Program-made: the position numbers and the translations under genes | Shown here: positions 507 through 21,592 of the stretch, piece by piece | Position numbering within the stretch: the first letter of the stretch is position 1 | Layout of the letters: each line of letters begins with the position of its first letter | Notes under the pieces: model-generated | What the model was told of the DNA's origin: nothing | Database searches by the model: none | The model's input: only the letters and a program-made list of their open reading frames with translations | From: a virus | Reading direction: 5' to 3' (one strand) | IMG/VR virus record: IMGVR_UViG_3300029917_000019 | Span: 1 to 23,785 of that record | DNA length: 23,785 nt

Positions 507-1148
507 TTAAGCAACTTTTCGTTTGATTAATTCGAGGTATGACTGAACGTCCTGCCAGAATTTCCAGAGACCGGATTCCAGCCGTTGGATATACAGCTCG
601 TCACGCTCAATGCGCTGGATGTACAGCCGATACGGCTCGTCCGTGCGCGGGTCATAGGAAACAAAATCCCACCACTTGCGCCCGGTGACAAACATGCAGC
701 CCTGCACCTGGCCGGCATGCTCTTCCGGCATACCTTCGGCCAGTGTCTTGATGTGGACGCCGGGGTCTTTCGGACATTTCATTTCAATGCCGCCATCAGC
801 CCCGACCAAGCCATCCGGCGAGCAGCCGATAAAATCGTGAACCGGATGCAGGATAAATTCGGCCTCGGTAACGACATGCCCCGTTTCGATTTCGTAGGCC
901 TGGCGCGCATAGGGCTCAGTATCCTTACCCCATTGCAGGCTGTAACTGTTGATTTCGGCCTTCGGTTCGCCGGACAGAATGGCCGCGACGATTTCTCGCA
1001 TATAGGTGCTACGGGTATCAGTAGGGACGAGGACCTTGTTCGGCTCTCGCCCGACCAGTTTCATGCTGATGGCGTCCTCGAAGCGGCTGGCGGTGATCTT
1101 GCCTGCGCGCTGACGGTGCCATTCCTCGGAGCGCTGTTCGATGGTCAT
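507..1148 (-). CDS. YqaJ-like viral recombinase / lambda Exo family exonuclease
   Basis: A 213-residue PD-(D/E)xK exonuclease of the YqaJ type, the partner of RecT-type annealing proteins. The N-terminal SEEWHRQRAGKITAS stretch (residues 7-21) is the family's conserved opening. The metal-binding core is visible as D112 in CSPDGLVG, then E122 and K124 in IEMKCP. Q147 in HAGQVQGCM matches the family's conserved helix after the active site. By family, it resects double-stranded ends 5' to 3' to leave 3' single strands for the annealase. Its start overlaps the RecT stop (ATGA, 1145-1148), so the two are translationally coupled, and a strong terminator follows. Length is normal for the family. Confidence 0.93.
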   Translation of the reverse strand: MTIEQRSEEWHRQRAGKITASRFEDAISMKLVGREPNKVLVPTDTRSTYMREIVAAILSGEPKAEINSYSLQWGKDTEPYARQAYEIETGHVVTEAEFILHPVHDFIGCSPDGLVGADGGIEMKCPKDPGVHIKTLAEGMPEEHAGQVQGCMFVTGRKWWDFVSYDPRTDEPYRLYIQRIERDELYIQRLESGLWKFWQDVQSYLELIKRKVA

Positions 1149-1996
1149 GCTGGCTGCTCCTCGGTGGACTCACCTTCGATGGGGGCATGCTGCTCGCAGA
1201 TGGCGCGGATACGCGCCCATTCATCAACCCCAACCGCCACGCGACCGGGCTTACCTATTGCGCCAAACTCTTGCGTCAATGCTTCCATGTTGCCGGTGTT
1301 GGCGATTGCCTCAAGCCGTGCGATAAAGCCAATGGCTTCCGGTGTCTGCTCTCCGGACGGCTTCGCCTTCTCTGCGTAGCCGGTGGCGGTCTTCGGTGTG
1401 ACGTCTCGCTCTCGTGGAGCGCTTTCAATCAACTCCTCCGGGGTGTAGACGCCCAATATCGCGCCGGGGCAGTAGAGGCGAGACCAGTTTTTTACCTGCA
1501 GGTAACCAAGCTGCTGTTTGGGGTTGGTTTTCCACAAAGGCGAATTTTTCGTGGTCACCGTCGCCGCGCTCAGCCATTCACCCCAGGTGACTTCCTTTTC
1601 ACCGCGAATCACGGCTCCGACACGGCACTGAACGGCCTGACCTTCACCCTGGTATTCATAGAAGAACCGCCCGTCAATGAAGCCGGACGACTGAATCACC
1701 GCATTAACCAGCTGGGCCTCGTACCCGAGGGCACCATTCACCACATGGGTTTTCTGCGCCACGGCAAACGGGTTCATCTTCCACTGCATGGCCTGCATGA
1801 TCACCGCCATGCAATCACCCGGATTGCTCCGGAGGTGCGTCGGGATGGTTGACTTGCCAGTGGACATCACCTCGGCTACGCGCATCATGCTGTTAAAGCT
1901 GTCTTCGTTCAGCACCAGTGCCGATGTTGATGTCTCCGGCCCGTTGTACTGCTGGAGGGCCGCACTTTCGGCCGCTTCCACGACTTGGGTTTCCAT
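1145..1996 (-). CDS. recT: RecT-family single-strand annealing protein
   Basis: A 283-residue protein. I placed the start at 1996 because AAAGG lies six bases upstream; a longer frame to 2047 would add 17 residues that overlap the preceding gene and lack a ribosome site. The core MNPFAVAQKTHVVNGALGYE followed by AQLVNAVIQSSGF is the hallmark of the RecT/Redbeta-like family, and WGEWLSAATV...SPLWKTNPKQQLGYLQVKNW is the second conserved block. RecT proteins anneal complementary single strands and promote strand invasion with the partner exonuclease encoded just downstream. The C-terminal third (from about residue 210) is variable and acidic, as in other members. It belongs to the leftward early operon driven from the promoter at 3128-3156. 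Confidence 0.93.
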   Translation of the reverse strand: METQVVEAAESAALQQYNGPETSTSALVLNEDSFNSMMRVAEVMSTGKSTIPTHLRSNPGDCMAVIMQAMQWKMNPFAVAQKTHVVNGALGYEAQLVNAVIQSSGFIDGRFFYEYQGEGQAVQCRVGAVIRGEKEVTWGEWLSAATVTTKNSPLWKTNPKQQLGYLQVKNWSRLYCPGAILGVYTPEELIESAPRERDVTPKTATGYAEKAKPSGEQTPEAIGFIARLEAIANTGNMEALTQEFGAIGKPGRVAVGVDEWARIRAICEQHAPIEGESTEEQPA

Positions 1997-2043
1997 CTCA
2001 AACCTTTCTGCCCGAGACTCTGCCGGGCATAAAAACGGCCGCA

Positions 2044-2214
2044 TCAAGCGGCCTTCTGAATCTCAAAAAGAATGTCTTCGATCACCGTGCGCTCGCGCTG
2101 CTTGTCGCGGGCTCGCTTGACATGAGGGATCGCTTCTCGACCGGTACCGCAGAGGACCGCCAGTTGCGCTTGCGCGGCGCCCTCGGCGTTGGCCTTGGTG
2201 TGTTGATAGGTCAT
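2044..2214 (-). CDS. Small hypothetical protein (56 aa)
   Basis: This 56-codon frame starts at an ATG whose first bases overlap the stop of the preceding gene (ATGA at 2211-2214) and ends 48 bases before the recT start. The product is soluble and mixed-charge, with a basic middle (HVKRARDKQRERT) and an amphipathic end (VIEDILFEIQKAA), and is probably all-helical. I do not recognise a family. The stop-start overlap on one side and the close spacing to recT on the other support it as a real operon member. Confidence 0.6.
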   Translation of the reverse strand: MTYQHTKANAEGAAQAQLAVLCGTGREAIPHVKRARDKQRERTVIEDILFEIQKAA

Positions 2215-8604: not shown

Positions 8605-8829
8605 ATGATCAAACGTGACGATATTCCAGTGGGATTCACTTATGATTCAAACGGTAATCAATTGGCCTTTAAGGATTCTGATGGGTATTGGAAAGAAAAG
8701 ACTTATGGTTCGAATGGTAATCTATTGACCTATAAGAATTCTGATGGTTTCTGGAAAGAATGGACTTATGATTCAAACGGTAAGCAATTGACCGTTAAGG
8801 ATTCTAATGGTGTCAATGAAATTTACTAA
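8605..8829 (+). CDS. Three-repeat protein, moron-like (74 aa)
   Basis: AAGGAG lies eight bases before the ATG. After MIKRDDIPVGF come three tandem 21-residue repeats that begin TYDSNGNQLAFKDSDGYWKE, TYGSNGNLLTYKNSDGFWKE and TYDSNGKQLTVKDSNG. The unit resembles short YD/RHS-like beta repeats seen in surface and toxin proteins, but the protein is far too short to form an RHS shell. No signal peptide or membrane segment. The gene is clearly richer in A+T than its neighbours, has its own strong ribosome site and sits at the end of the early operon next to a terminator. These are features of an acquired accessory gene. Function unknown. Confidence 0.75.
   Translation: MIKRDDIPVGFTYDSNGNQLAFKDSDGYWKEKTYGSNGNLLTYKNSDGFWKEWTYDSNGKQLTVKDSNGVNEIY
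8638..8826 (+). repeat. Three 63-bp coding repeats
   Basis: Units begin at 8638, 8701 and 8764, each opening ACTTATG(A/G)TTC(A/G)AA(C/T)GGTAA. The first two are the most similar; the third diverges in its last quarter. The period keeps the frame (21 codons). Confidence 0.85.
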
Positions 8830-9369: not shown

Positions 9370-10722
9370 TCAGTTCGTCCCGAAAATGTTGACGTAAGTC
9401 AGGGTCTGCGCCGCGCCTACGACTGTCACAATGGCACGTGCGAATTTACCCTGCAAGCCCGTGGTACTGGTCACTGCTACGGTTGAATTTGCGACCGACA
9501 GTAGCGCGGTGCTGGCGTTGAGGAAATTCACGCCGTCAGGGCTGAACTGCAACTGAATCGTCGCGCCAGTCGTCGCCGCGCCTGAGCATAGGGCCATGGT
9601 GATGCTCTTGCACCCCTCGATATTGTAAACCGAGGTGGTGCTAGATAGCGTGGTCGGTACGACGTTTCGGTCGAAGAAATTCCTGCAAATCAGCGGAGTC
9701 CCTTCGCTTCGCATTGCAGTGATACTAGTTGTGAAACTGGGGGTTGTTCCGCCGACAGTCCAGTACCAGGCGCGGCGACCGCCGATGGCGATATTCGGAA
9801 CTGTAAATGTCCCCGTTCCGGTAAATCGAGCCGCGTGGTAAACGTCTTGAAATGTGGTCCCATTGTCGAATGATTCTTTCAGCACAAGGTCCATAGTCGG
9901 CGTGGTGCCGGACGCTGCAGTGACATTAATCAGCGCCGCCATTGATTGGCCAAAGTCATCAGAAATAATGCCGCTATTACCGGTCGATGTGATCGCAGCG
10001 CTGGCCTTATCGGCATTATTCGACGGTGCGCCAATCTGAACGCCAAGTTCAATTTTACCAGTCGGTCCTGCCATAGTCGCCGGGGTGCCGCCGTTAACCT
10101 GGCTCACGCTGGTTGGAACATAACCGGTGTTCACGGCTACGCCCCCGACCTCATTAATTGCTACGGAATTGTTCCCGAGCTGTGATGTTGCTGGCAAAGA
10201 TCCGTAATAAGTATTGATATTTAGCGTGGTGGTGGTGCTCGCGCCAGTATTTTTAAATACCAGTTGGAAATAGTTACCAGCCAGCGCGAATGCCCGATTA
10301 AAACCTACCCCCGCCGTAATCGTGAATACGACTGTCGATTCAAGGAATACGCCACCCGCGTCAATAAATTGATTTAGCGTCAGGGTACCAGCTTGATCTG
10401 ATGTCAAACCAACAGTGACGGCAGGCTGGAATACAACCGCCTCAATCGTGCCAGTAAACGTCGCATTACTGGCGAGCTGTGCCGTTGATGTGTTCCCGGT
10501 GCTGGTGACAAATTGCGTCGGGCCCGCGCCGGTAAGCAGCGCAAACCCAGTGCCGGTACCCAAAAGCGATGTAATTACATTTCCAGATGCATCGACGACT
10601 TGCGTTTTCTGTGTGCCATTCGTCTGATTCTCGGAAGTCGCGCCACCCTCGGACCCCCCCGCAATTACGTAAACGGGAATTGCGCCCGCAGGGTTGCCCT
10701 GGTCGTTTGGATATAAACTCAT
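9370..10722 (-). CDS. Large beta-rich virion protein, possibly a fibre or decoration protein
   Basis: The 450-residue protein starts at the ATG that overlaps the Rz stop (10719-10722). It opens MSLYPNDQGNPAGAIPVYVI and continues as repeated short strands rich in Thr, Gly, Ser, Val and Asn (TAQLASNATFTGTIEAVVFQ; TTTLNINTYYGSLPATSQLG). There is almost no charge clustering, no signal peptide, no membrane segment and a single Cys pair region (MALCSGAATTG; IEGCKS). That composition is typical of phage tail fibre, head decoration or baseplate-associated proteins. No enzymatic motif is visible. It lies downstream of the lysis genes, an unusual place for a structural gene, so it may have come with the lysis module. 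Confidence 0.6.
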   Translation of the reverse strand: MSLYPNDQGNPAGAIPVYVIAGGSEGGATSENQTNGTQKTQVVDASGNVITSLLGTGTGFALLTGAGPTQFVTSTGNTSTAQLASNATFTGTIEAVVFQPAVTVGLTSDQAGTLTLNQFIDAGGVFLESTVVFTITAGVGFNRAFALAGNYFQLVFKNTGASTTTTLNINTYYGSLPATSQLGNNSVAINEVGGVAVNTGYVPTSVSQVNGGTPATMAGPTGKIELGVQIGAPSNNADKASAAITSTGNSGIISDDFGQSMAALINVTAASGTTPTMDLVLKESFDNGTTFQDVYHAARFTGTGTFTVPNIAIGGRRAWYWTVGGTTPSFTTSITAMRSEGTPLICRNFFDRNVVPTTLSSTTSVYNIEGCKSITMALCSGAATTGATIQLQFSPDGVNFLNASTALLSVANSTVAVTSTTGLQGKFARAIVTVVGAAQTLTYVNIFGTN

Positions 10723-11234
10723 TGTGGTGCACTCCGGGTCAGTAGGTCATTTTGGCAGGTTGTGAGTCGTGCGCTGACGGTGTCGGCGTCGTCTGAATTG
10801 GCGTATTCGGCACGCCCAAACTGCGAAATAGCGTCGATAAATTGGATTCGCTGGCGTGCAGATAGTGAGCCGTAGAAGGAATCATCGCTTCCGGCGGCGG
10901 GGGCGGCAACTGCGGACAAATTCCCGGCGCCGGTGGCGGCGTTGTGGCGCAGGCGGTCAAGACGACTAGACAGAGCGGAGTTAGCCTCCGCAAGTTTTTG
11001 ATTATCATGTTGCACCTCACTGATGTATGCAGTTGTCGATACCGCGTCGCTCGCCGCAACCGCGTGCTCGACGCTGCGCGCGTGTTGAATTGCGTGAGTT
11101 TGCGCCTGGGACTCGCTGGCCTGATGTTCGGCAAGTGCAATACGTGGCGCGTAATACCCATGCGCAGACCACACTCCGACACCGGCCAGACCCAGAACCG
11201 CGATGATGATTCCGAGTAGTTTAAGATTTAGCAT
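10719..11234 (-). CDS. Rz: Rz-like inner-membrane spanin (i-spanin)
   Basis: The 171-residue protein has an N-terminal membrane helix (LLGIIIAVLGLAGVGVW, residues 6-22), then a long Ala/Gln/Glu-rich periplasmic helix (residues ~30-95: ALAEHQASESQAQTHAIQ; NQKLAEANSALSSRLDRLR), and ends in a soluble C-terminal domain. This is the i-spanin plan. A lipoprotein gene in another frame lies inside it, confirming the two-component spanin. Together they bridge the envelope and fuse inner and outer membranes in the last step of lysis, which implies a Gram-negative host. It overlaps the holin-like gene by 14 bases and the next gene by four. Confidence 0.88.
   Translation of the reverse strand: MLNLKLLGIIIAVLGLAGVGVWSAHGYYAPRIALAEHQASESQAQTHAIQHARSVEHAVAASDAVSTTAYISEVQHDNQKLAEANSALSSRLDRLRHNAATGAGNLSAVAAPAAGSDDSFYGSLSARQRIQFIDAISQFGRAEYANSDDADTVSARLTTCQNDLLTRSAPQ
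10739..11008 (-). CDS. Rz1: Rz1-like outer-membrane lipoprotein spanin (o-spanin), nested in Rz
   Basis: The start at 11008 has GAGG six bases upstream. The 89-residue product begins MIIKNLRRLTPLCLVVLTAC: a signal peptide ending in an LTAC lipobox with Cys20 as the lipid-bearing residue. The mature part is proline-rich (TTPPPAPG; PQLPPPPPEAM), typical of Rz1. It is encoded entirely inside Rz in a different frame, the classic fully embedded arrangement. It should be sorted to the outer membrane and pair with the Rz C-terminus. Longer upstream extension of the frame to 11182 is basic and has no signal, so I reject it. Confidence 0.88.
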   Translation of the reverse strand: MIIKNLRRLTPLCLVVLTACATTPPPAPGICPQLPPPPPEAMIPSTAHYLHASESNLSTLFRSLGVPNTPIQTTPTPSAHDSQPAKMTY

Positions 11235-11397
11235 CCGGCGTCACCAGTTTGAAAAAATTAGACACGGTTAGCCCGGTCGCAGTTGCCGTGGCAATGTCAG
11301 TGTGCAACCCGACGTAGCACGCGACGCTGACACCCAAGAATAATAGCGCCTCTCGGGTACGCTGTTCCTGCGCTCGCGTTTTCAACCATTCAAGCAT
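11221..11397 (-). CDS. Small membrane protein in the lysis cassette, holin or pinholin candidate (58 aa)
   Basis: GAGGAG lies five bases before the ATG, and both ends overlap neighbours (endolysin upstream, Rz downstream). The product opens MLEWLKTRAQEQRTREALLF, with an amphipathic charged front, then a hydrophobic segment ALLFLGVSVACYVGL (17-31). A second, weaker segment (TATATGLTVSNFFKLV) follows. One or two passes and the position between endolysin and spanins fit a holin or pinholin for the SAR endolysin, but no family signature is present. The 160-residue and 220-residue membrane proteins upstream are competing holin candidates. Confidence 0.6.
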   Translation of the reverse strand: MLEWLKTRAQEQRTREALLFLGVSVACYVGLHTDIATATATGLTVSNFFKLVTPDAKS

Positions 11398-11846
11398 GTT
11401 TTCTCCTCGTCCGCACGTCGGCGCACCAGCCCCGGCAGCTTGCGGCCTCCGGCGTACACGTAGCGCGTTAATTCATGACACGCCGCCTGGACATTCCCAG
11501 CGGCCTCGTATGTCGGAATACGAGATCGTTTTAATGTCGCAACACCTGCATTATAAGCAAAGTCTGTATATGCAACGCGCCGATTATCTGGCAGGCCAGG
11601 CATTAAATCATCAACTGGACCGAGATAATCTTTAATCCGACCGGCCAGCATCGCATTGCACTCGGCGGGCGTTTTGGTCTCACCGAAATACACCCCTTGC
11701 GTTTCCCCATAGCAGATCGTCGCCAAGGTGGCGCGCGCCGGGTCTTTATACGCATGGGTGCGTAGCCCCTCGTGAGCGCCAATCATGCTAACGCATAGGG
11801 CGACGATTCCCGCACCGCCTGCCACATGCCTAGTGGTTATTGCCAT
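11382..11846 (-). CDS. SAR endolysin, GH24 lysozyme family
   Basis: A 154-residue lysozyme. The N-terminus has a weak hydrophobic segment (residues 8-24, GGAGIVALCVSMIGA) rich in Gly/Ala with a Cys, a signal-anchor-release sequence that lets the enzyme sit in the membrane inactive until depolarisation. The GH24 core follows: E26 (HEGLRTHAY), D35 (YKDP), then TICYGET, and later RVAYTDFAYNAGVATL and GLVRRRADEEKTCLNG. The E-to-D distance is standard (eight between), but D35 to T43 is two residues longer than in T4 and P21 lysozymes. It cleaves the glycan strands of peptidoglycan. The C-terminal Cys could pair with others to regulate activity. Confidence 0.9.
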   Translation of the reverse strand: MAITTRHVAGGAGIVALCVSMIGAHEGLRTHAYKDPARATLATICYGETQGVYFGETKTPAECNAMLAGRIKDYLGPVDDLMPGLPDNRRVAYTDFAYNAGVATLKRSRIPTYEAAGNVQAACHELTRYVYAGGRKLPGLVRRRADEEKTCLNG

Positions 11847-12312
11847 TTTGCTGCAGTCCCTTCACGTGAGCGGCTTGAATTGCAATGACCCCGAAATCGG
11901 CAGCCGTCTCACTGTATATCGCCTCTCCGATCCAAGCTGCGATACTCAGCACCAGTCCCGCGATGACCACGGATCGCACTTGATTGCGAACTGGCTTGCG
12001 ATCCTCCGTGGCCATGCGCGATGCCCGGGCGTGCGCAAGATCTAGCTTGATCGCATCGGCGTCGTCAACATGTAAACCGAAGCGATTTAATTTGTCGTGC
12101 GTCAAGACGCTGTTCCGAAGGGCTATGATGTCCTGATTGGTTTTAGTCAATCCGCTTTCCAGCCGATCAACTTTGAGTACCGACTGTTGGATGTCGCCGG
12201 ATAGACGTGCTATCGTTTCGGTTTGCTGCTTTAGCGCCTCGTTCGTCGCCTGACTGGACCCAATTAGGATCCCGAGTTGCATGTGTAATTCATTGCTCGT
12301 TTCGTTGCCCAT
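11830..12312 (-). CDS. Coiled-coil protein with C-terminal TM helix, lysis-associated (160 aa)
   Basis: Residues ~20-70 form a coiled coil (ATNEALKQQTETIARLSGDI; VLKVDRLESGLTKTNQD), residues ~85-108 are highly charged, and VVIAGLVLSIAAWIGEAIYS (about 114-133) is one membrane helix with a short tail. The plan resembles haemolysin XhlA-type and other holin-accessory proteins, which tether to the membrane and assist lysis. It overlaps the endolysin start by 17 bases and the gene before it by 23, so it is expressed with them. It could itself be an atypical holin. No family assignment is certain. Confidence 0.6.
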   Translation of the reverse strand: MGNETSNELHMQLGILIGSSQATNEALKQQTETIARLSGDIQQSVLKVDRLESGLTKTNQDIIALRNSVLTHDKLNRFGLHVDDADAIKLDLAHARASRMATEDRKPVRNQVRSVVIAGLVLSIAAWIGEAIYSETAADFGVIAIQAAHVKGLQQNGNNH

Positions 12313-12952
12313 GCTCAGCCCAGAACCTGCGAAGAATTGTTAGACAGTTCGGGCCTAAGAATTTCCATGTGGCCCCCAGACTGGATTTTAACGTGTCGTC
12401 GTCGGTCGCGCTACCTCGGGTGACATGGTATGCAGGTAAATCGAGTTTAGACACGTCGATCGTCACCAGGCGTCCATGTCGAAACAGATACACAATTCGC
12501 TCGTGACATATTGCATACGCACCGTTCGGCCCGAAACATCCGAGTAGCGATATGGCAAAATCTTGTACGCGCACGGGCTTTTTCCGCAAGCAATACACGT
12601 TATCGTCGTTGATAGAATCGGATGGCTGATCGTAGGATCTCAGCCAATACGTCAGCCACATGGCAGCGAGCACTAGCAGTTGAATTCCAGCAGCCAGCCA
12701 GTATCCACGCCACCGCGTTGTGTACCAAATCGCGCCGATGATGCAATCCGATAGACAATATCCGGCGATGGCGGCGGCAATGCACTTTGATCTTAAGTTG
12801 CGATACGGAATTGAGCGGACAAGCCAAAACGCCAGCGCGGTGAGCGCTAGCGTATGGCTGTATTCTGTGATTATCCAGTTTAGCCCGTGACTAGGGAGCC
12901 GGAGGGCAATCAGGCGGGGGAGTACGAGGATCAACAGAATCATCGCGGGCAT
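12290..12952 (-). CDS. Multi-TM protein with a Cys-containing C-terminal domain (220 aa)
   Basis: The first ~105 residues contain three to four hydrophobic helices (AMILLILVLPRLIAL; LALTALAFWLV; CIAAAIAGYCLSDCIIGAIW; YWLAAGIQLLVLAAMWLTYW). Residues ~115-220 are soluble and contain GAYAICHERIVYLFRHG and, near the end, WKFLGPNCLTILRRFW. The GxNC pattern after an earlier His recalls circularly permuted NlpC/LRAT-like enzymes, but this is a weak likeness only. It lies between the DUF7338-like membrane protein and the lysis genes. A holin is possible on topology but the soluble domain is unusual. Function unknown. Confidence 0.55.
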   Translation of the reverse strand: MPAMILLILVLPRLIALRLPSHGLNWIITEYSHTLALTALAFWLVRSIPYRNLRSKCIAAAIAGYCLSDCIIGAIWYTTRWRGYWLAAGIQLLVLAAMWLTYWLRSYDQPSDSINDDNVYCLRKKPVRVQDFAISLLGCFGPNGAYAICHERIVYLFRHGRLVTIDVSKLDLPAYHVTRGSATDDDTLKSSLGATWKFLGPNCLTILRRFWAEHGQRNEQ

Positions 12953-12979
12953 TTTTCTTCCGTTTCATATAGCTTTGTT

Positions 12980-13510
12980 TCATTTTGGAGTGTACCCCAT
13001 AAAAGGATTAATTGAGAATACGAGTGGCAGGCGTCCGGTGAAATTTGAATCGTGAACTGCATCCATTAGTTTCCAGCCTAAATATGCGCGGAAACAATGT
13101 GAGCCGTAGGGAATGACGATGTAGACCATCCATGCTTGCGACGCCCAGGCTACACAAACACCACCTGAACCCCCCTGGTTACTAGTATCCGGATTGCCAC
13201 GCCATCGAATGCACTGATCGATTGTCGCGCCTGCAGGGCCGATATCGAAGCCCCCGCCGGGGTTGCGCCACATCCAGCAAACGCGCTTCCAGAACGGGGG
13301 CAATCGGCACATCCAAGGATGCACTGCTGGATCCTGCCACGGAGCGTCGCCGTCCAGCGTGTTATCCGATGTCTGTAACCAGGATAGCCATACCGGGACG
13401 TTACCCGACGCGTCAGCAAGGGACACCCACAGGGGGGCCCCAATCGCAGTGACAACGGTCAGCAGCAGCGACACCAGCACTAACACAGGCCATGCAAACC
13501 AGCGCCACAC
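12980..13510 (-). CDS. Membrane-anchored phage protein, DUF7338-like (176 aa)
   Basis: One N-terminal membrane segment (FAWPVLVLVSLLLTVVTAIG, residues 5-24) is followed by a Trp- and Pro-rich domain: VPVWLSWLQTSDNTLDGD, CRLPPFWKRVCWMWRNPGGG and a VFSINPFMGYTP end. This composition and order (LFWFQTxDN, then C-x-x-W-x-x-R-N-x-x-x-G, then a GWK strand) match a family of conserved phage proteins, DUF7338-like, commonly found near tail fibre and lysis genes. Function not established. It starts one base after the preceding stop and belongs to the incoming module discussed for 14 kb. Confidence 0.55.
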   Translation of the reverse strand: MWRWFAWPVLVLVSLLLTVVTAIGAPLWVSLADASGNVPVWLSWLQTSDNTLDGDAPWQDPAVHPWMCRLPPFWKRVCWMWRNPGGGFDIGPAGATIDQCIRWRGNPDTSNQGGSGGVCVAWASQAWMVYIVIPYGSHCFRAYLGWKLMDAVHDSNFTGRLPLVFSINPFMGYTPK

Positions 13511-13511
13511 G

Positions 13512-13895
13512 TCAGGCTCCCGGCAGCGTTAGCCACGCGGGCACAGTCGGCCACACGCAGGTTGTCGGGAACCCCGCTTGCTCCGGCACATTACGCAGCG
13601 CCTCCATCAGAGTAAGCAGATCGACGAATTGCGCCGATGTCAGCGTGGTCGCCATGCCCAGGTCGATCTGCGACTTGTGACGCACGTAGAGCGGCTGCAA
13701 TTGCTCAAGATAAGCATTGCGCTGGGCGCGCGCCGAAGCAGCCAGACTATCGATGCTAGGTGCTGGGTTTTGCAGCACTTGCGCCTGCTCGTCGGTCAGT
13801 AGCGTCATATTTTGCGGCCACGTCGGCAATGCCAGCGCAGCGCCATCCATGTCATCATGCAGAGTACCGTCTGCGGGGTTTTGCCAAATAGACAT
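13512..13895 (-). CDS. Tail-fibre-assembly-like protein (127 aa)
   Basis: AAGG lies nine bases before the ATG. The product opens MSIWQNPADGTLHDDMDGAA, has a helical middle (DSLAASARAQRNAYLEQLQP; TSAQFVDLLTLMEALRNVPE) and ends FPTTCVWPTVPAW. The pattern of a short N-terminal domain, a helix with RNxY, and a terminal P-x-x-P/W motif is typical of tail fibre chaperones that help the fibre C-terminus fold. It follows the stranded 3' end of a tail fibre, so fibre end and chaperone probably moved together. This is the second such gene in the window (see 14502-15044). Confidence 0.6.
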   Translation of the reverse strand: MSIWQNPADGTLHDDMDGAALALPTWPQNMTLLTDEQAQVLQNPAPSIDSLAASARAQRNAYLEQLQPLYVRHKSQIDLGMATTLTSAQFVDLLTLMEALRNVPEQAGFPTTCVWPTVPAWLTLPGA

Positions 13896-13909
13896 AATTT
13901 TTACCTTAT

Positions 13910-14095
13910 TTATCGGAGTTCATACCAAGTAGTAATAGTATTAGTACCTGAGTTATGAACCACACTATATGGTGCGCCGGGTGGAATAATTCCAGTAAGC
14001 ATGCCAATGCCTGTACTTGAACTACTTTGTTCGTAAAAAGTATATATGCTAAGTCCTTGAATATTTAGACTGGAATTAGAACCGGCAGTTGTGGC
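13910..14095 (-). pseudogene. 3' fragment of a tail fibre gene
   Basis: From about 14095 to 13910 the minus strand reads TTAGSNSSLNIQGLSIYTFY and onward to IPPGAPYSVVHNSG and a TITTWYELR end. The last block, IPPGA-Y-S with a final W-x-E-L-R, is the usual C-terminus of fibre proteins that end in a beta knob. The frame upstream of ~14095 is out-of-frame lysozyme sequence and gives no credible start (only a TTG at 14176 without a ribosome site). The stretch is visibly AT-rich against its neighbours. I call it the orphan end of a fibre gene left by recombination. Confidence 0.65.
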
Positions 14096-14192
14096 CGACG
14101 CCGACGGTCGGAATCCCCATCGTATCGGCGTAGATCGTGTAACGCACACCCTCGTCCCTGCGCAATTCAGCTTCAAGTAATGCCTGGTTCAT
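14076..14192 (-). pseudogene. 5' remnant of a GH24 (T4-type) lysozyme gene
   Basis: The ATG overlaps the stop of the preceding gene (ATGA, 14189-14192), with GGGAAGGG just upstream. The 38 residues begin MNQALLEAELRRDEGVRYTI and continue YADTMGIPTVGVGHN, then CRF and stop. E14, D23 and T29 have exactly the E-x8-D-x5-T spacing of T4 lysozyme, so the catalytic triad is intact. A complete enzyme needs about 145-165 residues; everything after the VGVGHN turn is missing, so it cannot fold as an active lysozyme. The break coincides with the start of foreign tail-fibre sequence. Confidence 0.8.
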
Positions 14193-14434
14193 TCCCTTCC
14201 CTTTCCCGTTGCGCGCTCAATTAATTCCGTGAGGTCGCGCTTAAATTCACTGAACATCTCCCGGATCTCATCCTTCTTCAAGAACTGGCCCGCCACCTCG
14301 ACACGCAATTCCTCGTGCGCTGCGCGCAACCTTTCGTGCTTGTCATGCAGGTTGACCAGCCACCAGCCAATGGCAGCCAGCAGGATCGACAGCAGCCCGC
14401 TCATGATGGACAGAAGCACCTCGGTGATTGTCAT
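14189..14434 (-). CDS. Small TM/coiled-coil protein, holin-accessory-like (81 aa)
   Basis: GAGG lies four bases before the ATG. The N-terminus is one membrane helix (LLSIMSGLLSILLAAIGWWLV, residues 7-27), followed by a long charged helix (HDKHERLRAAHEELRVEVAG; MFSEFKRDLTELIERATGKG). Such N-TM plus coiled-coil proteins commonly sit directly before lysozyme genes as holin accessories. Here the gene is indeed coupled to a lysozyme, now truncated. It may still be expressed but has lost its usual partner. A terminator precedes it. Confidence 0.65.
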   Translation of the reverse strand: MTITEVLLSIMSGLLSILLAAIGWWLVNLHDKHERLRAAHEELRVEVAGQFLKKDEIREMFSEFKRDLTELIERATGKGRE

Positions 14435-14453
14435 TTCGCCTCATTTCTGTCAT

Positions 14454-14475
14454 AAAAAATCCCGATCGCGGCGGG
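14454..14475 (-). terminator. Possible intrinsic terminator inside the late operon
   Basis: Minus strand: CCCG, 7-base loop, CGGG, A, then six Ts. The stem is only four GC pairs, so termination would be partial. It lies between the fibre-chaperone gene and the old lysis cassette, a natural boundary for modules. Confidence 0.45.
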
Positions 14476-14501
14476 TTATTGTTTGCTGCTGGGATGTCTG
14501 A

Positions 14502-15044
14502 TCAGAACGTCACGGACTGCACTGCCGCGACCGTGGTCGCAGCGTTCACTGCAGCCACTTTCGTCAGTAAATCCATGTATCCCGGCGTATCTGCAGCCTC
14601 CATTGCCGCTGCAAGGCCCTGCAAGTCCGCGTAAGTGAACGGCGTTACCGGCTGGCCGCTGGAATTGAGCCACAGATTGAGCGGCCACGCCTGCGATTTC
14701 GCGCTGGCGACCAAGGCGTTCTGCAAATTCTGCGTATTCGTCGCAGATTGTGTGAATGTCGCGGTCGCGCCGCCGACCGTCGTGTAGCTGACCGGGGCGG
14801 TGATCGCGGCTTCGTATGCCGATTGAAGGGCTGCGATTTGCGCTGCTTGGGCCTGCACGAGTGTCATCGCGAGCGCTGCCGGCGGAGAAAATACACCGCC
14901 AGCATACGTCCAGCCGATCGCAGCGGTATTCGATTGCACGGCGGTATAGCCTGCAGGCGGCGTCCAGTCCGGACTGCCATCCCACATCACTACGTTGTCG
15001 ACGCTGCCCGATGCGTCAACCAGGGCATATTGCTGAGCTGTCAT
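14502..15044 (-). CDS. DUF4376-like tail fibre chaperone or accessory protein (180 aa)
   Basis: The product opens MTAQQYALVDASGSVDNVVM, then WDGSPDWTPPAGYTAVQ, the usual N-terminal strand module of fibre assembly and DUF4376-type proteins. The C-terminal part (TYADLQGLAAAMEAADTPGY; VAAVNAATTVAAVQSV) is an alanine-rich helical domain. It lies directly downstream of the glycine-rich tail fibre gene (start overlaps region of that gene's stop by none, gap zero), the normal place of a fibre chaperone that helps trimerise the fibre or remains bound at its tip. Its stop is followed by a possible terminator. Confidence 0.7.
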   Translation of the reverse strand: MTAQQYALVDASGSVDNVVMWDGSPDWTPPAGYTAVQSNTAAIGWTYAGGVFSPPAALAMTLVQAQAAQIAALQSAYEAAITAPVSYTTVGGATATFTQSATNTQNLQNALVASAKSQAWPLNLWLNSSGQPVTPFTYADLQGLAAAMEAADTPGYMDLLTKVAAVNAATTVAAVQSVTF

Positions 15045-16328
15045 TTATGTGTACTCCCAAACCATAACCAAGCCGGCGTTTCCGGCACTGCCAGCCGTCG
15101 CGCTGCTGCTTGGAGCCAGGTAGACGCCCGAAGCCCCTTGTCCAGCACCCGCTCCAAATACCGAAGGAGTGGCATGCATGCCCGTTGCTACAATTAAGCC
15201 TGCTGCGAGCGCTTGCGCTCCCCCGAGGCCTTTTGCTGCAATGATATTTCCCCCCGTCGGAGCCGGGGATGACGACGTAGTGCCCGTGTTAAAAGGAAAT
15301 GACGATGACGTGATGCCGTTCGGCGCACCGTTGCCACCGGGCGATGACACCAAACCGCCGAATGATGATGTACCACCAGACGTACCCGATGTCGCACCCG
15401 CCGCACCACCACTACCTGCCGCACCCACTGCGACTGACACGCCGGAGAAGCCAGTGGTTAAACGGCTCTTTGCATACGCGCCAGCTCCGCCCGGAGGCGA
15501 AATACCGCACTGTGATGCAGATGTCGCGGCAACGCCGCCAGACCCGCCGCCGCCACCGATGCACTCCACGATTACACTGCTTGTCCCAGGCGTCGGAGTG
15601 TATGTCCCGCTGGCGCTAAAAATCTGGACGTTAATTAAATTGCCACCCCCAACGGCGCTCAATCTTTGCGCTACACTGCCGCCGGTCAGCTGCCACTCGC
15701 CCCCGATAAAATTGAAGCTCGCGGTTTCACCTCCGTAGAGCACCACAGATCCCGCGACGACCGCTTGCCCGACCCCGGTGATCATGGTCACGCCCGCCGG
15801 CGCGGCGATGGTCACGCCTGCCGAATTTGTGCAGTACATGTCGAATTGCGCACCAGCCGAGAGCCCGGCCGCACCGGGCAGCGTGACCTGATACGCTGAT
15901 GTACTATTCAGCGAAAATGCGGACCCCGCCTGGGCTGCCGTCAGCGTCGTCGTTCCGGTGATTGACGCCGAATTTGTCGAGGCGTTTCCGCTCATCGCCT
16001 GCATCTGCGGCGTCTGCACCATCAGATTCATCGAGCCCGCTGTCAGCAGGTTGGCCGCAATGTCGCCCGCATTCCACGCAAGCGCGGTTGTGCCCTCCTG
16101 CGCCCGGGTCATAGTGATGACATCGCCCGTGACGTTGGTCACATACACGATCTCGCGCAGCAAGCCGGTCGCTGCATCAACGAACGTCATCGGGAAATAC
16201 TGACCGGTCACGGGAGACGGGAACAGCACGCCGGAGCCGGGCGACAAATTCGCGGTGAGCGCCGTTGATGTAATCGCCCCCGCCAGAGTTGTTTGGTCAT
16301 TGTTTGCAAACAGTACGATATTTGCCAT
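15045..16328 (-). CDS. Tail fibre protein with glycine-rich receptor-binding end (427 aa)
   Basis: Residues 1-115 are a conserved fibre-attachment module (MANIVLFANNDQTTLAGAIT; PMTFVDAATGLLREIVYVTN; TRAQEGTTALAWNAGD), which joins the fibre to the baseplate. Residues ~120-240 are repeated beta strands. From about residue 250 the chain turns to Gly/Ser clusters (IECIGGGGGSGGVAATSA; GSGGAAGATSGTSGGTSSF) ending GLVMVWEYT, like polyglycine receptor-binding tips. The tip likely recognises the host surface. The gene's ATG overlaps the stop of the small gene before it. Fibre tips vary fast; this region is the probable host-range determinant. Confidence 0.85.
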   Translation of the reverse strand: MANIVLFANNDQTTLAGAITSTALTANLSPGSGVLFPSPVTGQYFPMTFVDAATGLLREIVYVTNVTGDVITMTRAQEGTTALAWNAGDIAANLLTAGSMNLMVQTPQMQAMSGNASTNSASITGTTTLTAAQAGSAFSLNSTSAYQVTLPGAAGLSAGAQFDMYCTNSAGVTIAAPAGVTMITGVGQAVVAGSVVLYGGETASFNFIGGEWQLTGGSVAQRLSAVGGGNLINVQIFSASGTYTPTPGTSSVIVECIGGGGGSGGVAATSASQCGISPPGGAGAYAKSRLTTGFSGVSVAVGAAGSGGAAGATSGTSGGTSSFGGLVSSPGGNGAPNGITSSSFPFNTGTTSSSPAPTGGNIIAAKGLGGAQALAAGLIVATGMHATPSVFGAGAGQGASGVYLAPSSSATAGSAGNAGLVMVWEYT

Positions 16329-16489
16329 TATTTTTTCTTCCTGTCCATATAGCGTGTCTTAGCTGGCGCGCTATCATGCGCGACCATTTCTTTGCCCACC
16401 GATTGCGGAATCCCTGTCTTCTCCGCAATCTTAGGCTCGTGAGCCACCGCTTCCATGAGCCGGTGCTGTTTTTCGGAGGTCGTTGGCAT
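16328..16489 (-). CDS. Small conserved phage protein (53 aa)
   Basis: The stop TAA overlaps the fibre ATG (TAATG). The product opens MPTTSEKQHRLMEAVAHEPK and continues IAEKTGIPQSVGKEMVAHD, ending in RKKK. The S-E-K-Q-x-R-L-M...G-I-P-x-x-V-x-K-E-F/M pattern is a very common small phage protein of unknown function, usually written in structural operons. The basic, helical make-up suggests a DNA- or capsid-binding peptide. Here it lies between tail genes. No ATG alternative. Confidence 0.7.
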   Translation of the reverse strand: MPTTSEKQHRLMEAVAHEPKIAEKTGIPQSVGKEMVAHDSAPAKTRYMDRKKK

Positions 16490-16500
16490 GAATTTTATCC

Positions 16501-17208
16501 CTATTCGATAACGACATTATAGGTAAATTGGAACGGTAACTGCACCGCGCCGGCATTTATCGCAGCTTGCAAAACGGGCGCCATAACCAACGGGGCATTG
16601 GCGGCGGTAAACGTACTTTGTATCGTATTCAGTGCCACGGTATTGAGGGTGAAAGCATTGAGTATCGCTCCTCCGGTCACGCGGCGCATACCGTTCAGAA
16701 TCGTGATATTGACCTGATTGCCCGATCCGAATGTGACGCTTACCTGATATGTCTGATTGATGCCGGGGTCAGTGCCGTTCACGCCCAGCAAGAAGCGCAT
16801 GATGCGCCGCTTCAGCCATTTGATTGTGAACGCCTGACCGTCGCCTTTGTAAAAAAACCATGTCAGGATGCGCTTATACACGTCATCGTTTGTTGCATAA
16901 TACGACGTCGGCCCGATTCGCTCGAGTGTATTTAACGCAACGGTGTTTAACGCCCAGGTATTCAGCGTGCCGACGCTCTGATTCGTTCCGCTCGGTAGCA
17001 CTGGCCTCGGCAATCCGTATAGCCCAGTCCCGACCCAATCCAGCAGCGCGCCCTGAATCGGAGCGCCGGTGTAAACTGGTAAGCCCACACTGTTGAGCCA
17101 GTCCACATACTCCTGGGCCTCACCGTTAAACGCCGACACGAACGCCTGCAACGAATCGTCGTCGTTATACTGCGTGTAGAGGTATGACGGGATGACTTGC
17201 GTTAGCAT
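16501..17208 (-). CDS. Tail/baseplate protein downstream of baseplate J (235 aa)
   Basis: This 235-residue protein follows the baseplate J gene by two bases, the position held by gpI-like or DUF2612-like proteins that join fibre and baseplate. It opens MLTQVIPSYLYTQYNDDDSL, then AFNGEAQEYVDWLNSVGLPV and IQGALLDWVGTGLYGLPRP, and later has repeated LNTVALNT motifs at residues ~85-95 and 188-196. Such openings (tail end position, DWV-G-x-G-LYG-x-x-RP) are typical of that class. It probably forms the platform to which the fibre attaches. No enzymatic motif. Confidence 0.7.
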   Translation of the reverse strand: MLTQVIPSYLYTQYNDDDSLQAFVSAFNGEAQEYVDWLNSVGLPVYTGAPIQGALLDWVGTGLYGLPRPVLPSGTNQSVGTLNTWALNTVALNTLERIGPTSYYATNDDVYKRILTWFFYKGDGQAFTIKWLKRRIMRFLLGVNGTDPGINQTYQVSVTFGSGNQVNITILNGMRRVTGGAILNAFTLNTVALNTIQSTFTAANAPLVMAPVLQAAINAGAVQLPFQFTYNVVIE

Positions 17209-17210
17209 GG

Positions 17211-18623
17211 TTACCTCTGATTGACGACGATGTTGTTCGACAGCGCGAAAAAGTACGACTCTGGATCGCCAGAAATCACGCCTGTTCCGGTGGCAGGCGC
17301 GGTGGATATCCCATTAATTGACACCGAAAAAATAAGTCGCGTCAGCAAATTAGTCGGCACGATTGACGACACCGCTTGCTGAAACACTTCCTGCATCTGA
17401 AACAGATTCATGGGCTGGCCCGCTGAAATCGAATTCACGTAGCTGGTCAAAGCTGGCTGTGCAAGCTGCGCAACGGCGGTGCTTGAAATGAAATTCGTCG
17501 CGCTGGTGTTCCACGTCACAGTCATTGCCACGGTTTGCTGCGGCGGGTTGACGAATGGAATCAGGTACGTATCCGGGTAATCGTTAATGCTCACGGAAAT
17601 GTTGCGCAGATTCGGTGTGACGACACCGCCTGACACATACGCGCCGTAACCCGATGTGTTGACTCCGATGCTGAATGTAGTCTGCGTCAACACGGTGATG
17701 GTGAGCGGCGTGTTGTTCACCGCGGTCATGCCGACGACGCCCGCGATATTAATGACCTGGCCGGTCGTGAACCCATGGTTTAAATTCGTGGTTACGACGC
17801 CGGGGTTTGCCTGGGTGATTCCGGTCACGGCCAGAGTTGAGCCGGTCAAATCCAGAATATCAAATAGACTGGTGTAAATCGCATTGGCGACTTGATACGG
17901 GTCTCCACCCCCGCAAATCACCTCCCATGACGCGCCCGCCTGACGCACCGACACAAGGCGCGGCTGCACACCCGGCAGATTGGCGAGGTTGGTCTTGAGC
18001 ATGTTGGGCATACCCTGCGCACCCACTAGACCGGCTTGCAGCACCAGCGACCTATAGGTGTCGATGCTTTCCGCTGCGCCACCTGGCGTGCCTGCGGTCG
18101 GGTTAGTCACGCTAAGCGCGATCGTGCTGGGGACTGAGGTCACGAGCTGCGTCACCGTGCCCGCAGGGACGGCCCACGTGCCGCTCGCGGTTGCCAGGCA
18201 ATACATGGAGAGACTCTGGCCGTTTGAACCAATGATACCCCCTTCCTGCACCGTGTACTGATAGGTCCCATCCGACACGGTGACTCCTGGACTGATTGCG
18301 AAGCCCACTGAGCCAGAGAAAACCACATACACGCTGGTGTTACTGGTCGTACCCTGCTGGACCCCGTAAATATTCCCGAGCTGAATCAGCAATTGCTCGT
18401 TGGCGGCATACGGCGACAGCGAGTTGACCAGGTCGACGCGAGCCTGGTCACATACGACCAGCGCCCCCACATCAGTGCTGGCGATATCCTCAATCAGTGA
18501 TCCCGGTAGATTCGCGGTGTAACCGGGGTTCTGCGCAGCAACCGACGCAATCAGATTAGCGCGCAACGTCGCGGGTGATTGCGGTTGCAGTCCGGCAGCG
18601 GTAATAACAGTCGGCAGGGTCAT
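17211..18623 (-). CDS. Baseplate J-like protein (470 aa)
   Basis: The N-terminal SPATLRANLIASVAAQNPGY with the following LPGSLIEDIASTDVGALVVC matches the Baseplate_J family, as does the strand block TYRSLVLQAGLVGAQGMPN with ANLPGVQPRLVSVRQ. Baseplate J/gp6-like proteins form the wedge ring of contractile tails and trigger sheath contraction. Residues ~270-320 contain a small inserted beta domain (GFTTGQVINIAGVVGMTAVN). Presence of this family implies a contractile (myovirus-type) tail; the sheath gene must lie upstream, outside the window. Starts overlap the preceding gene by four bases. Confidence 0.9.
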   Translation of the reverse strand: MTLPTVITAAGLQPQSPATLRANLIASVAAQNPGYTANLPGSLIEDIASTDVGALVVCDQARVDLVNSLSPYAANEQLLIQLGNIYGVQQGTTSNTSVYVVFSGSVGFAISPGVTVSDGTYQYTVQEGGIIGSNGQSLSMYCLATASGTWAVPAGTVTQLVTSVPSTIALSVTNPTAGTPGGAAESIDTYRSLVLQAGLVGAQGMPNMLKTNLANLPGVQPRLVSVRQAGASWEVICGGGDPYQVANAIYTSLFDILDLTGSTLAVTGITQANPGVVTTNLNHGFTTGQVINIAGVVGMTAVNNTPLTITVLTQTTFSIGVNTSGYGAYVSGGVVTPNLRNISVSINDYPDTYLIPFVNPPQQTVAMTVTWNTSATNFISSTAVAQLAQPALTSYVNSISAGQPMNLFQMQEVFQQAVSSIVPTNLLTRLIFSVSINGISTAPATGTGVISGDPESYFFALSNNIVVNQR

Positions 18624-18949
18624 GTGGCCACCTGGGTAATAATTCGTGAGCCGCTATTGGTCAGAATGTTGATATTGTATGTCGGGTTGACGTCTGTCGT
18701 CTTGGCAATCTGCAGGCTCGCAAAATAACCGGAGAATTGCGATTGAGTGCGAGCCACATAAAACGACGGTAAAATTTGCTGAATCACCGACATCTGAGCC
18801 GGGATGCCGTACTGCGCGTAAAACGGCGATTCGCCAGGCGCAAGCGCCAGGCATTGCGCCAGCGTGGTTAGCCACACGGGGTCATTGTACCCGTTTGCGT
18901 CGGTGTCAACCTCGACCCACACGCCGTTGATTCGTCCATATGTGCGCAT
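18620..18949 (-). CDS. Baseplate wedge-like protein (109 aa)
   Basis: A 109-residue protein between the spike and baseplate J genes, the slot of gp25/W-type wedge proteins in contractile phages. The visible parts are VWVEVDTDANGYNDPVWLTT, LAPGESPFYAQYGIPAQMSV and YNINILTNSGSRIIT. The L-x-L-x-P-G-E-S/N-P-F...Y-G-I/T-x pattern and the strand-rich end fit the gp25-like fold, though the acidic EPR motif of T4 gp25 is not evident. It coordinates the baseplate wedge and the start of the sheath. Overlap with both neighbours supports co-translation. Confidence 0.65.
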   Translation of the reverse strand: MRTYGRINGVWVEVDTDANGYNDPVWLTTLAQCLALAPGESPFYAQYGIPAQMSVIQQILPSFYVARTQSQFSGYFASLQIAKTTDVNPTYNINILTNSGSRIITQVAT

Positions 18950-19665
18950 TATACCGGACCCCCCGTGTTGCCGCTGCCCGTGGTAACGCCACCGTGGTGG
19001 TGAGTGCCAAGCGACTTGCCCTCGGCAACAACGTCGTTTGTCACGGTGATTGGTCCGAGCATAGTCGCAGTGCCGCCGCCAGAGCCTGTGCCTTGTGACA
19101 GTGGCCCGTTTAATACCGTGGCCCCATTAACCGTAAACGTCGGCGTGGTGAGTGTTGTTGCGCCAGCGGTGATGTTAAACACGCTTGCACCCACCTGGCA
19201 ATTAATTCCGGTCGGAGTCAGCGTGATTACCGCCCCTGAACCGGTGTCGCGCAGCACCACCCCGTTAGGGCCGTATAGCGTCACGGCATTAGGGTCCACC
19301 GATACCCAAGCAGTATTTGCTATGGGCAGGAACACGAGCGCTGAGAGGTTGGCGGGTTGCGTCAGACCGGCCACGCCACCGCCCAATCCACTCATGCCGC
19401 CTAGGTGCGCGTCGAATGGGATGACAACCCCCTTGTCGCCAGCCTTAATCGGGTAGCGCGCATACTCGGGTCCGAACAGCGGGATAGTGACTTGCGGCAA
19501 CGTGTAATCAGACGCAATCTCGAATTTAACAGTGACGATCGCCCCCGAGACCGACACGACGGACGCGGGCAAACCCTTACCGAGCAATTGATATGCGTCG
19601 ATGATTTTGGTCTGCGCAAACGCGGTGAGCGTCTGCGCCAGTGGGGTTTTTTGTGCGTCGCTCAT
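18949..19665 (-). CDS. Baseplate spike protein, gp138/gpV-like (238 aa)
   Basis: Residues ~25-130 form an OB-like N-terminal domain (LPASVVSVSGAIVTVKFEI; YPIKAGDKGVVIPFDAHLGG) as in gp138-type spikes. Residues ~135-215 are short strands that would form the beta helix (TLYGPNGVVLRDTGSGAVI; PTFTVNGATVLNGPLSQG). The tail end GTHHHGGVTTGSGNTGGPV carries His222-224, the metal-binding histidines that hold iron at the spike tip in P2 gpV-type proteins. The trimer punctures the outer membrane when the sheath contracts. No lysozyme domain is fused. Confidence 0.85.
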   Translation of the reverse strand: MSDAQKTPLAQTLTAFAQTKIIDAYQLLGKGLPASVVSVSGAIVTVKFEIASDYTLPQVTIPLFGPEYARYPIKAGDKGVVIPFDAHLGGMSGLGGGVAGLTQPANLSALVFLPIANTAWVSVDPNAVTLYGPNGVVLRDTGSGAVITLTPTGINCQVGASVFNITAGATTLTTPTFTVNGATVLNGPLSQGTGSGGGTATMLGPITVTNDVVAEGKSLGTHHHGGVTTGSGNTGGPV

Positions 19666-20609
19666 GCCGGTATCACCGCGTCGATTGAAGTCACCCAGGA
19701 ATTTGCGTCAGCCTGGCGAGAATTGCCAATGTGGCGAACGACAGTCACTTGAAACACGCCCTGCTGAGCTGACCGATCTCGCGCTTGTGGTTGTGACGCC
19801 TGCGTCGTGATTGTAACAGACCCCTGCGGCAACTCAATATAGTCACCCACGCTGATGTCACCGCGCAGCACACAGCGGACGTTTATTGTTTGTGGGGCAA
19901 TCCACGTCGGCTGGCCGATCATGTCAACAAAATTTAATTGCTTCGGCGTCGCAGTCGTGGTGCCGTCGTACACAATAATCTGATTATTTTTGACCAGCAT
20001 CGATACGCCCGAATACGTACCGCCGACGATAGCCTGGCTCACTTGTTTAACGTACTGGGCAAACTGCACCAGCGTGCCGTAAAAGCCGGGTTCGTCATGC
20101 GATAGGACCAGATTCTGGCTGATATTCACGGTGGATTTATATTGGGGAAACGCCGTCGTTAGAGTGTTGGTAATCGCGGTGCCGAGTTGCATGCCCGCTT
20201 TCCAGTTCAACACTAGATTCGCGGTATCGTTGATTGTGCCCGAGTACGGGTAGCACACAATGTCGAGGCTTTGATTTTCACCCTGCCAATTACCGTACGC
20301 CTGGAAAATCGTGCCTTCAAGAATCAGCCCCGCCTGCGCCGGGTTTGCAAGCGGCAAGCCCTTTGACATGCCCGCCGACACCTGAATGTTTTTCCCGTTG
20401 AGGTTGGATCCCTGCGAAATGTCAGCCAGCCCAATGCCCCACACCTTGATGTATGCGGCACCCATTGGCGACGCCATCGCATATAGCGGGATATCAATTT
20501 CAACAGTCAGCGCGCCGGGATTGTTTTGCCCGTTGGCCTGCAACGACGAATAAGTTTTAACGGGACTCCCGGTCGTCGGGTCGCTGATGACGATGTTGTA
20601 ATAGCGCAT
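19662..20609 (-). CDS. Baseplate hub protein (315 aa)
   Basis: A 315-residue strand-rich protein located just before the spike gene, the place of gp27/gpD-like hubs. Blocks include ALTVEIDIPLYAMASPMGAA, VWGIGLADISQGSNLNGKNI (a typical hub-domain strand pattern), SLDIVCYPYSGTI and DVVRHIGNSRQADANSW-like ends (here VVRHIGNSRQADANSW). The hub connects the tail tube to the spike as a pseudo-hexamer. Family membership is inferred from location and beta pattern rather than a strict motif. Stop and start overlap the spike gene by four bases, and the start shares one base with the plug gene. Confidence 0.7.
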   Translation of the reverse strand: MRYYNIVISDPTTGSPVKTYSSLQANGQNNPGALTVEIDIPLYAMASPMGAAYIKVWGIGLADISQGSNLNGKNIQVSAGMSKGLPLANPAQAGLILEGTIFQAYGNWQGENQSLDIVCYPYSGTINDTANLVLNWKAGMQLGTAITNTLTTAFPQYKSTVNISQNLVLSHDEPGFYGTLVQFAQYVKQVSQAIVGGTYSGVSMLVKNNQIIVYDGTTTATPKQLNFVDMIGQPTWIAPQTINVRCVLRGDISVGDYIELPQGSVTITTQASQPQARDRSAQQGVFQVTVVRHIGNSRQADANSWVTSIDAVIPA

Positions 20610-20878
20610 TACGGCGAAACCTCTATTTGCGCGTTATCAATCCGATACACCAGGGTGCTAGTGAAATATCCGGCGGTCAGTGAAATATCGTACCCGAGCG
20701 GCGAACCGATAAACGGCATGCACAAAATCAGCGTGCCGCCGAGGTCATAGATGTTGATGTAATACCGCTGGCCGAAAATGTTCCACGTGATGATGACGTT
20801 GTACGTCGTCCCGTCCAGCGTCGGCTGAAACTGGAACGGCGTGGTGGCGGTTGGCGTGAAATCGTAAACGGTGGTCAT
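20609..20878 (-). CDS. Baseplate plug-like small protein (89 aa)
   Basis: The 89-residue protein is nearly all strands: FQFQPTLDGTTYNVIITWN, GQRYYINIYDLGGTLILCMP and IGSPLGYDISLTAGYFTSTL. The L-D-G-x-x-Y...W-N...R/Y-Y-x-x-I/L-Y-D...G-x-x-L/I pattern matches the small baseplate plug (Pam3 gp18-type) found between Dit-like and hub genes in simple contractile phages. It would close the central channel of the baseplate. Both ends overlap neighbours. Confidence 0.65.
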   Translation of the reverse strand: MTTVYDFTPTATTPFQFQPTLDGTTYNVIITWNIFGQRYYINIYDLGGTLILCMPFIGSPLGYDISLTAGYFTSTLVYRIDNAQIEVSP

Positions 20879-21591
20879 AGGTCAGCCAGCAGCGCAGAGG
20901 CTGTCCCGGTCAAGCTTGATGCTCCATTGATTGAAGTCGCACCGGCAAGCGTGGAACCGGTGGCTACCGCAGCACCAGACCACGACGGGGTGGCGATTGG
21001 CAATCCACCATCAATTTTATTCATCAGATTGCCTAGTACCTGATCCGCTTGATTTAAAGTGAGTAGTGGCCGCTCAAAATCCCATTGCCATTGGGTCTGA
21101 ACCTGACGCGTGTCGCCGCCGCTGATGTCGCGCAGTCCTTTGAGAATTAGACTCTCGTAAATAAAAGCCGGGGTGGCTACAATGTAAGTCCCACCTGAAT
21201 TGTTATGCACGTCAAGCGCCGCTTTGAGCGCGCTAATCGTCACGAATTTTGTCACGTAGCTGGATGAACCTTTTACCGGGCAACTCATTTTCAGCGAAAT
21301 GTGAAGCGGTTGCGCGATAATTGCATTTGCCGCGACGGTCTGATTCGCGAATGGATAGGAGCCGATGCTGTTTTCAACCAGGGTTGACCCCGGCAGCGGC
21401 TCAAAGTGGCACAGATATTGATCCAAATCCAGATCAAAAGATCCTGACAGCAAGCCCGATGTGAAATTGGCAGCCTCGGTGATGGCAACAATGGGCAACA
21501 TTTGGCCGGGAATATTTTGTGCAAGCCCCCCCACCAGGATGATCGGCGAGATTTCATTTCCGAGCTGAAACAACGAGCGCGCGATTGTCAT
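20875..21591 (-). CDS. Dit-like distal tail/baseplate protein (238 aa)
   Basis: It follows the tape-measure gene by one base, where Dit-like proteins of simple contractile phages are encoded. Visible blocks are FQLGNEISPIILVGGLAQNI, an amphipathic AIIAQPLHISLKMSCPVKG, KFVTISALKAALDVHNNSGG, then ATPAFIYESLILKGLRDISG and a WQWDFERPLLT strand. The pattern 'treated as a strain/quantity to be aligned, then Y-x-x-L/M-x-L-x-x-L-x-D, then a W/F-x-F-E/D-x-x strand' is typical of the Dit-like family that caps the tube. The C-terminal ~40 residues are Ala/Ser/Gly-rich and flexible. Confidence 0.6.
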   Translation of the reverse strand: MTIARSLFQLGNEISPIILVGGLAQNIPGQMLPIVAITEAANFTSGLLSGSFDLDLDQYLCHFEPLPGSTLVENSIGSYPFANQTVAANAIIAQPLHISLKMSCPVKGSSSYVTKFVTISALKAALDVHNNSGGTYIVATPAFIYESLILKGLRDISGGDTRQVQTQWQWDFERPLLTLNQADQVLGNLMNKIDGGLPIATPSWSGAAVATGSTLAGATSINGASSLTGTASALLADL

Positions 21592-21592
21592 A

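Follow-up and report, generated by a model that had tools for sequence, protein, structure and literature searches.

Phage recombinases of the Rad52/RecT-like type promote the formation of mosaics between sequences whose homology is short and diverged (PMC3945230). In the Alteromonas phages A5 and V22, a tail fibre and its cognate chaperone move together between phage backbones (PMC10579305). The locus described here lies in a 23,785-base contig from an uncultivated virus (the whole stretch analysed, hereafter the window) and resembles both systems in part. As in A5 and V22, fibre and chaperone would have moved jointly, but the block in the window would also have brought in a holin-like gene and the start of a lysozyme gene, with the break falling inside the lysozyme and debris being left behind. 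Likeness to the Rad52/RecT-like mosaics lies in the exonuclease/RecT pair encoded by the window phage and in exchanged pieces that are often gene fragments, whereas the two sides of the lysozyme-fibre joint share a few bases at most, which makes homologous exchange at that end only possible. The truncated gene resembles GH24 T4-type phage lysozymes (PF00959) in its first 37 residues, which include the E/D/T triad, but about 110 C-terminal residues are absent. We read this stub and its joint as the scar of a tail-fibre module exchange, an ordinary case of phage mosaicism, with a probability of about 0.9.

Gene layout of the window

The window phage is of temperate type. Its left side carries an exonuclease, a RecT-like protein, a repressor, an anti-repressor, a replication O-like protein and RusA, as identified by PHROG search, and the lysis and tail genes follow on the right side in minus direction (Table 1). 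There, baseplate genes are followed by the active fibre, the DUF4376 chaperone, the holin-like gene and the 38-codon lysozyme start, and then by the orphan fibre end, a second chaperone, small genes, the complete endolysin and a spanin. Among isolate phage records a single distant DNA match was returned, between the second endolysin and Iodobacter phage PhiPLPE, and plasmid records gave no DNA match to the window. Two repeat regions were also observed: a QTAPAAQQRVP unit repeat in the tape-measure protein (22021-22176), which differs in the otherwise identical contig L002, and a 74-aa ORF (8605-8829, plus strand) of DSNGxxLxxKDSDGxWKE-type repeats that is YD/RHS-like in appearance.

Table 1. 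Positions of the features discussed, in window coordinates.
Feature	Position	Strand	Basis
Truncated GH24 endolysin ORF, 38 codons	14076..14192	-	codons 1-37 native; codon 38 and stop from joined sequence
Recombination joint	14082..14088		alignments to L026, L024; fibre homologues L012-L017
Orphan tail-fibre 3' end, 58 codons and stop	13910..14086	-	PHROG 26525 tail fibre, E=1.6e-4
Resident tail-fibre assembly chaperone (Phage_tail_APC), 127 aa	13512..13895	-	Pfam PF16778, E=3.4e-10; PHROG 8716/188
Putative imported holin-like membrane protein, 81 aa	14189..14434	-	100% aa in L023/L024; PHROG 1350 holin weak, E=0.054
Putative imported fibre chaperone (DUF4376), 180 aa	14502..15044	-	Pfam PF14301, E=1.3e-6
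Active tail fibre (predicted), 427 aa	15045..16328	-	PHROG 863, E=5.9e-29
Complete second endolysin, R21-like GH24, 154 aa	11382..11846	-	Pfam PF00959, E=2.3e-28; PHROG 7, E=6e-43
Rz-like spanin, after complete endolysin	10719..11234	-	PHROG 2466, E=5e-4
Exonuclease and RecT-like annealing protein	507..2047	-	PHROG 149, E=8e-41; PHROG 561, E=1e-90

The lysozyme stub

The stub translates as MNQALLEAELRRDEGVRYTIYADTMGIPTVGVGHNCRF followed by a stop. Its catalytic residues, E14-x8-D23-x5-T29, lie in the N-terminal lobe and are those of GH24 enzymes. Against Pfam PF00959 (Phage_lysozyme) it scores E=2.4e-4 and 21.9 bits, just below the cut-off of 22.3, and covers 24 of the 125 profile positions (3-26), thus falling short of a complete domain. 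PHROG 7 endolysin (E=5.6e-6) and phage lysozymes in the PDB (E from 2.5e-6) are matched as well, and these three sources agree with an earlier note that had recognized the beginning of a T4-type GH24 lysozyme here. On these sequence matches, the likeness to lysozyme is not due to chance. The first 37 residues align with the N-terminus of intact GH24 (T4-type) endolysins, with 86% identity to L026/L027 and best identities of up to 86-88% (L026, L027, L033). The start codon, ribosome site and coupling to the upstream gene are intact, as also claimed before: the stub's ATG and the stop of the holin-like gene share the sequence ATGA, with a purine-rich ribosome site upstream.

As the stub is very short, the collection was scanned for its relatives with the intact L024 lysozyme as query, and some 20 homologues were found to be full length, with ORFs of 151-255 codons. 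The stub itself combines two alleles. Codons 1-20 are L024-like, with one mismatch in 62 nt, and codons 21-37 are L026-like, the switch falling near codon 20 (window 14083-14131). Since codons 21-37 resemble L026 and not L024, the imported lysozyme appears to have been an allele mosaic already before import, through an older recombination inside the lysozyme gene. A different arrangement is seen in L029 (3300046471_000091, 5245-6012), where an HNH-endonuclease-like ORF (5338-5955) separates the first 18 or so codons of a lysozyme gene from a complete lysozyme gene downstream; the lysozyme start is thus duplicated, and the insertion looks like that of a homing endonuclease.

The joint between lysozyme and fibre

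Past codon 37 lies tail-fibre DNA in another frame, made up of the final 58 codons of such a gene, and a fibre chaperone comes next; the match to PHROG 26525 agrees with the fibre end that had been proposed. At the corresponding place the L026/L027 lysozymes read VGVGHNCRSKPLP, so that in the stub codon C36 and the start of codon R37 are native. Aligned to L026, native lysozyme DNA extends through TGCCG into R37 (to about 14083), and the fibre frame (AGSNSS...) then starts at GCCGGTTCT, at about 14086. The motif VGVGHN after which lysozyme homology had been said to end does contain the GHN, but the homology runs on past it. For the same reason the sharp junction stands while its place shifts from 14085-14095 to about 14082-14088, two codons later. 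The short homology that the earlier note had suggested looking for amounts, by alignment, to between 0 and about 6 bases common to both sides, and microhomology is possible. No unusual fold (z=-1.0) was found at the joint, and no RNA family was matched. A joint-spanning 19-mer also occurs in L003, within an unrelated gene, and was dismissed as chance.

Two gene fragments are joined out of frame, while the lysozyme is intact in L023/L024/L026/L027, as an intact copy in relatives had been expected. Fibre ends related to the orphan end are likewise intact in L012-L017, where the terminal pattern IPPG..Y....TWYELR, also present in the orphan end (which finishes ...TNTITTWYELR), stands just upstream of the same chaperone family. 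A search for the exact parent fibre returned the same strain only, and the intact counterparts sought for both fragments were in this respect found in part.

Imported block and resident genes

L023 and L024 encode the same holin-like protein (100% aa), followed by an intact 154-aa lysozyme, and share window 14131-14819 at 97.5% DNA identity; the C-terminal part of the DUF4376 chaperone (from 14819) lies inside this block. The order chaperone-holin-lysozyme is intact in these two, and fibre-chaperone-holin-lysozyme is intact in L006/L007. No contig was found with the whole donor block together with the fibre tip of the window, and the holin-like gene, used as a query against genome contigs, gave no relative. 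As its PHROG 1350 match is weak, the label 'holin' for this protein derives mainly from its position. The active fibre combines a resident N-terminal adaptor (residues 1-111, 15997-16328), 96% identical in amino acids to the sister phage L005, with a different, glycine-rich tip; homology to L005 stops at 15997.

L005 matches the window at 90% DNA identity over 15997-21579 (baseplate genes) and at 79% over 13508-13911. Between these homologous flanks it lacks the block and the stub; its fibre tip differs, and a 337-aa gene is present in addition. Because both flanks are homologous and the content between them differs, the interval from about fibre codon 111 to the fibre stop behaves as an exchange interval in the window lineage. 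The second chaperone is 80% and the complete R21-like endolysin 60% identical in amino acids to their counterparts in L005. The fibre end had been described as the foreign part, but comparison with L005 favours the reverse. The chaperone downstream and the lysis and baseplate genes are shared with that phage, the holin and lysozyme start are not, and the fibre end is therefore more likely the older resident and the holin-lysozyme part the newcomer.

Among 74 loci with the shared baseplate J protein, the stub is confined to the window's own strain, with many contigs ending earlier, and conservation of the short gene as such, which would have spoken against the earlier note, was not seen among the fetched relatives. 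The fibre locus is highly variable in this family and tandem fibre genes are common, with two or three fibre N-termini (L049, L052-L055 and others); in L052, L053, L058 and others, up to three tandem fibre genes carry the same N-terminal adaptor. The baseplate J search of genome contigs returned one contig only (L046, 60%), binned as Candidatus Saccharibacteria, which is probably a misbinned phage contig and otherwise a possible host clue.

Discussion

The ancestor would have had its own fibre gene with the matching chaperone as residents, together with a complete lysis cassette of R21-like type, and would have acquired foreign DNA comprising, in this order, a fibre tip, the DUF4376 chaperone, the holin-like gene and the GH24 lysozyme. 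One joint, between new tip and resident adaptor, would be at about 15997 (near fibre codon 111), and the other within the imported lysozyme after codon 37, where the final 58 codons of the old fibre now follow. A single exchange could have done this, or else the block may first have been inserted and the stretch between lysozyme and old fibre then deleted, a route about as likely because many relatives have two or three tandem fibre genes. The exonuclease/RecT-like pair is a plausible machinery for such mosaic exchange. Such are the direction and order of events that we infer. Afterwards, the new fibre and chaperone would be used, the stub and old fibre end would remain as non-functional debris, and lysis would proceed via the second endolysin.

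Joining of two phage populations through a common short word during metagenome assembly, a concern for any contig from an uncultivated virus, would leave much the same picture, the more so as the two sides have at most a few bases in common. Such an overlap is, though, too short for an assembler to join, and the identical joint occurs in contig 3300031261_000134, which comes from another metagenome record and has different ends, although the samples may not be fully independent. A chimera is very unlikely because 100% identity between the two contigs spans the joint over 11.47 kb (10422 to 21895); their only differences are in the tape-measure repeat beyond 21895. This answers the doubt about assembly raised in the earlier note.

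A small functional gene, for example a 38-residue lysis regulator or decoy, could be argued from the intact start, ribosome site and ATGA coupling, and from the holin-like gene differing from L024 at three sites, all synonymous, which are too few to prove selection. T4-type lysozymes require the C-terminal helical lobe for their fold, and with about 110 C-terminal residues missing the stub should not be an enzyme. Unrelated DNA supplies its final codon and stop; among the baseplate relatives fetched, many of them on contigs that end early, it occurs in its own strain only, and the homologues are full length. We thus find retention for a function highly improbable, and still more so that the stub, translationally coupled to the imported holin-like gene, lost its enzyme activity but survived as a peptide that times lysis. 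Nor should the stub be needed for lysis, because a complete R21-like endolysin, likely the working lysis enzyme, is present with a spanin. The earlier suggestion of a meaning of its own for the intact triad or the peptide finds no support: any break after codon 29 keeps the triad, which is accordingly no sign of selection, and the 38-residue peptide is perhaps still translated. The variability of the fibre locus might also suggest that the orphan 58 codons are a reserve fibre-end cassette, serving as a switchable or recombining alternative tip. Yet no long repeats, direct or inverted, were found between the orphan end and the active fibre and no invertase was seen among the window proteins scanned (part of the ORFs), and the chance of such a role is very small.

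Fibre module exchange, supported by the intact lysozymes elsewhere and by the second contig, is thus preferred as the origin of the truncated lysozyme and the fibre end behind it. Complete and presumably in use, the new fibre tip and chaperone are probably the benefit of the event. For annotators, the stub should not be labelled a lysozyme. For phage biology, the locus would offer a clean example of a phage that swaps its fibre tip and chaperone, with flanking genes caught as debris.
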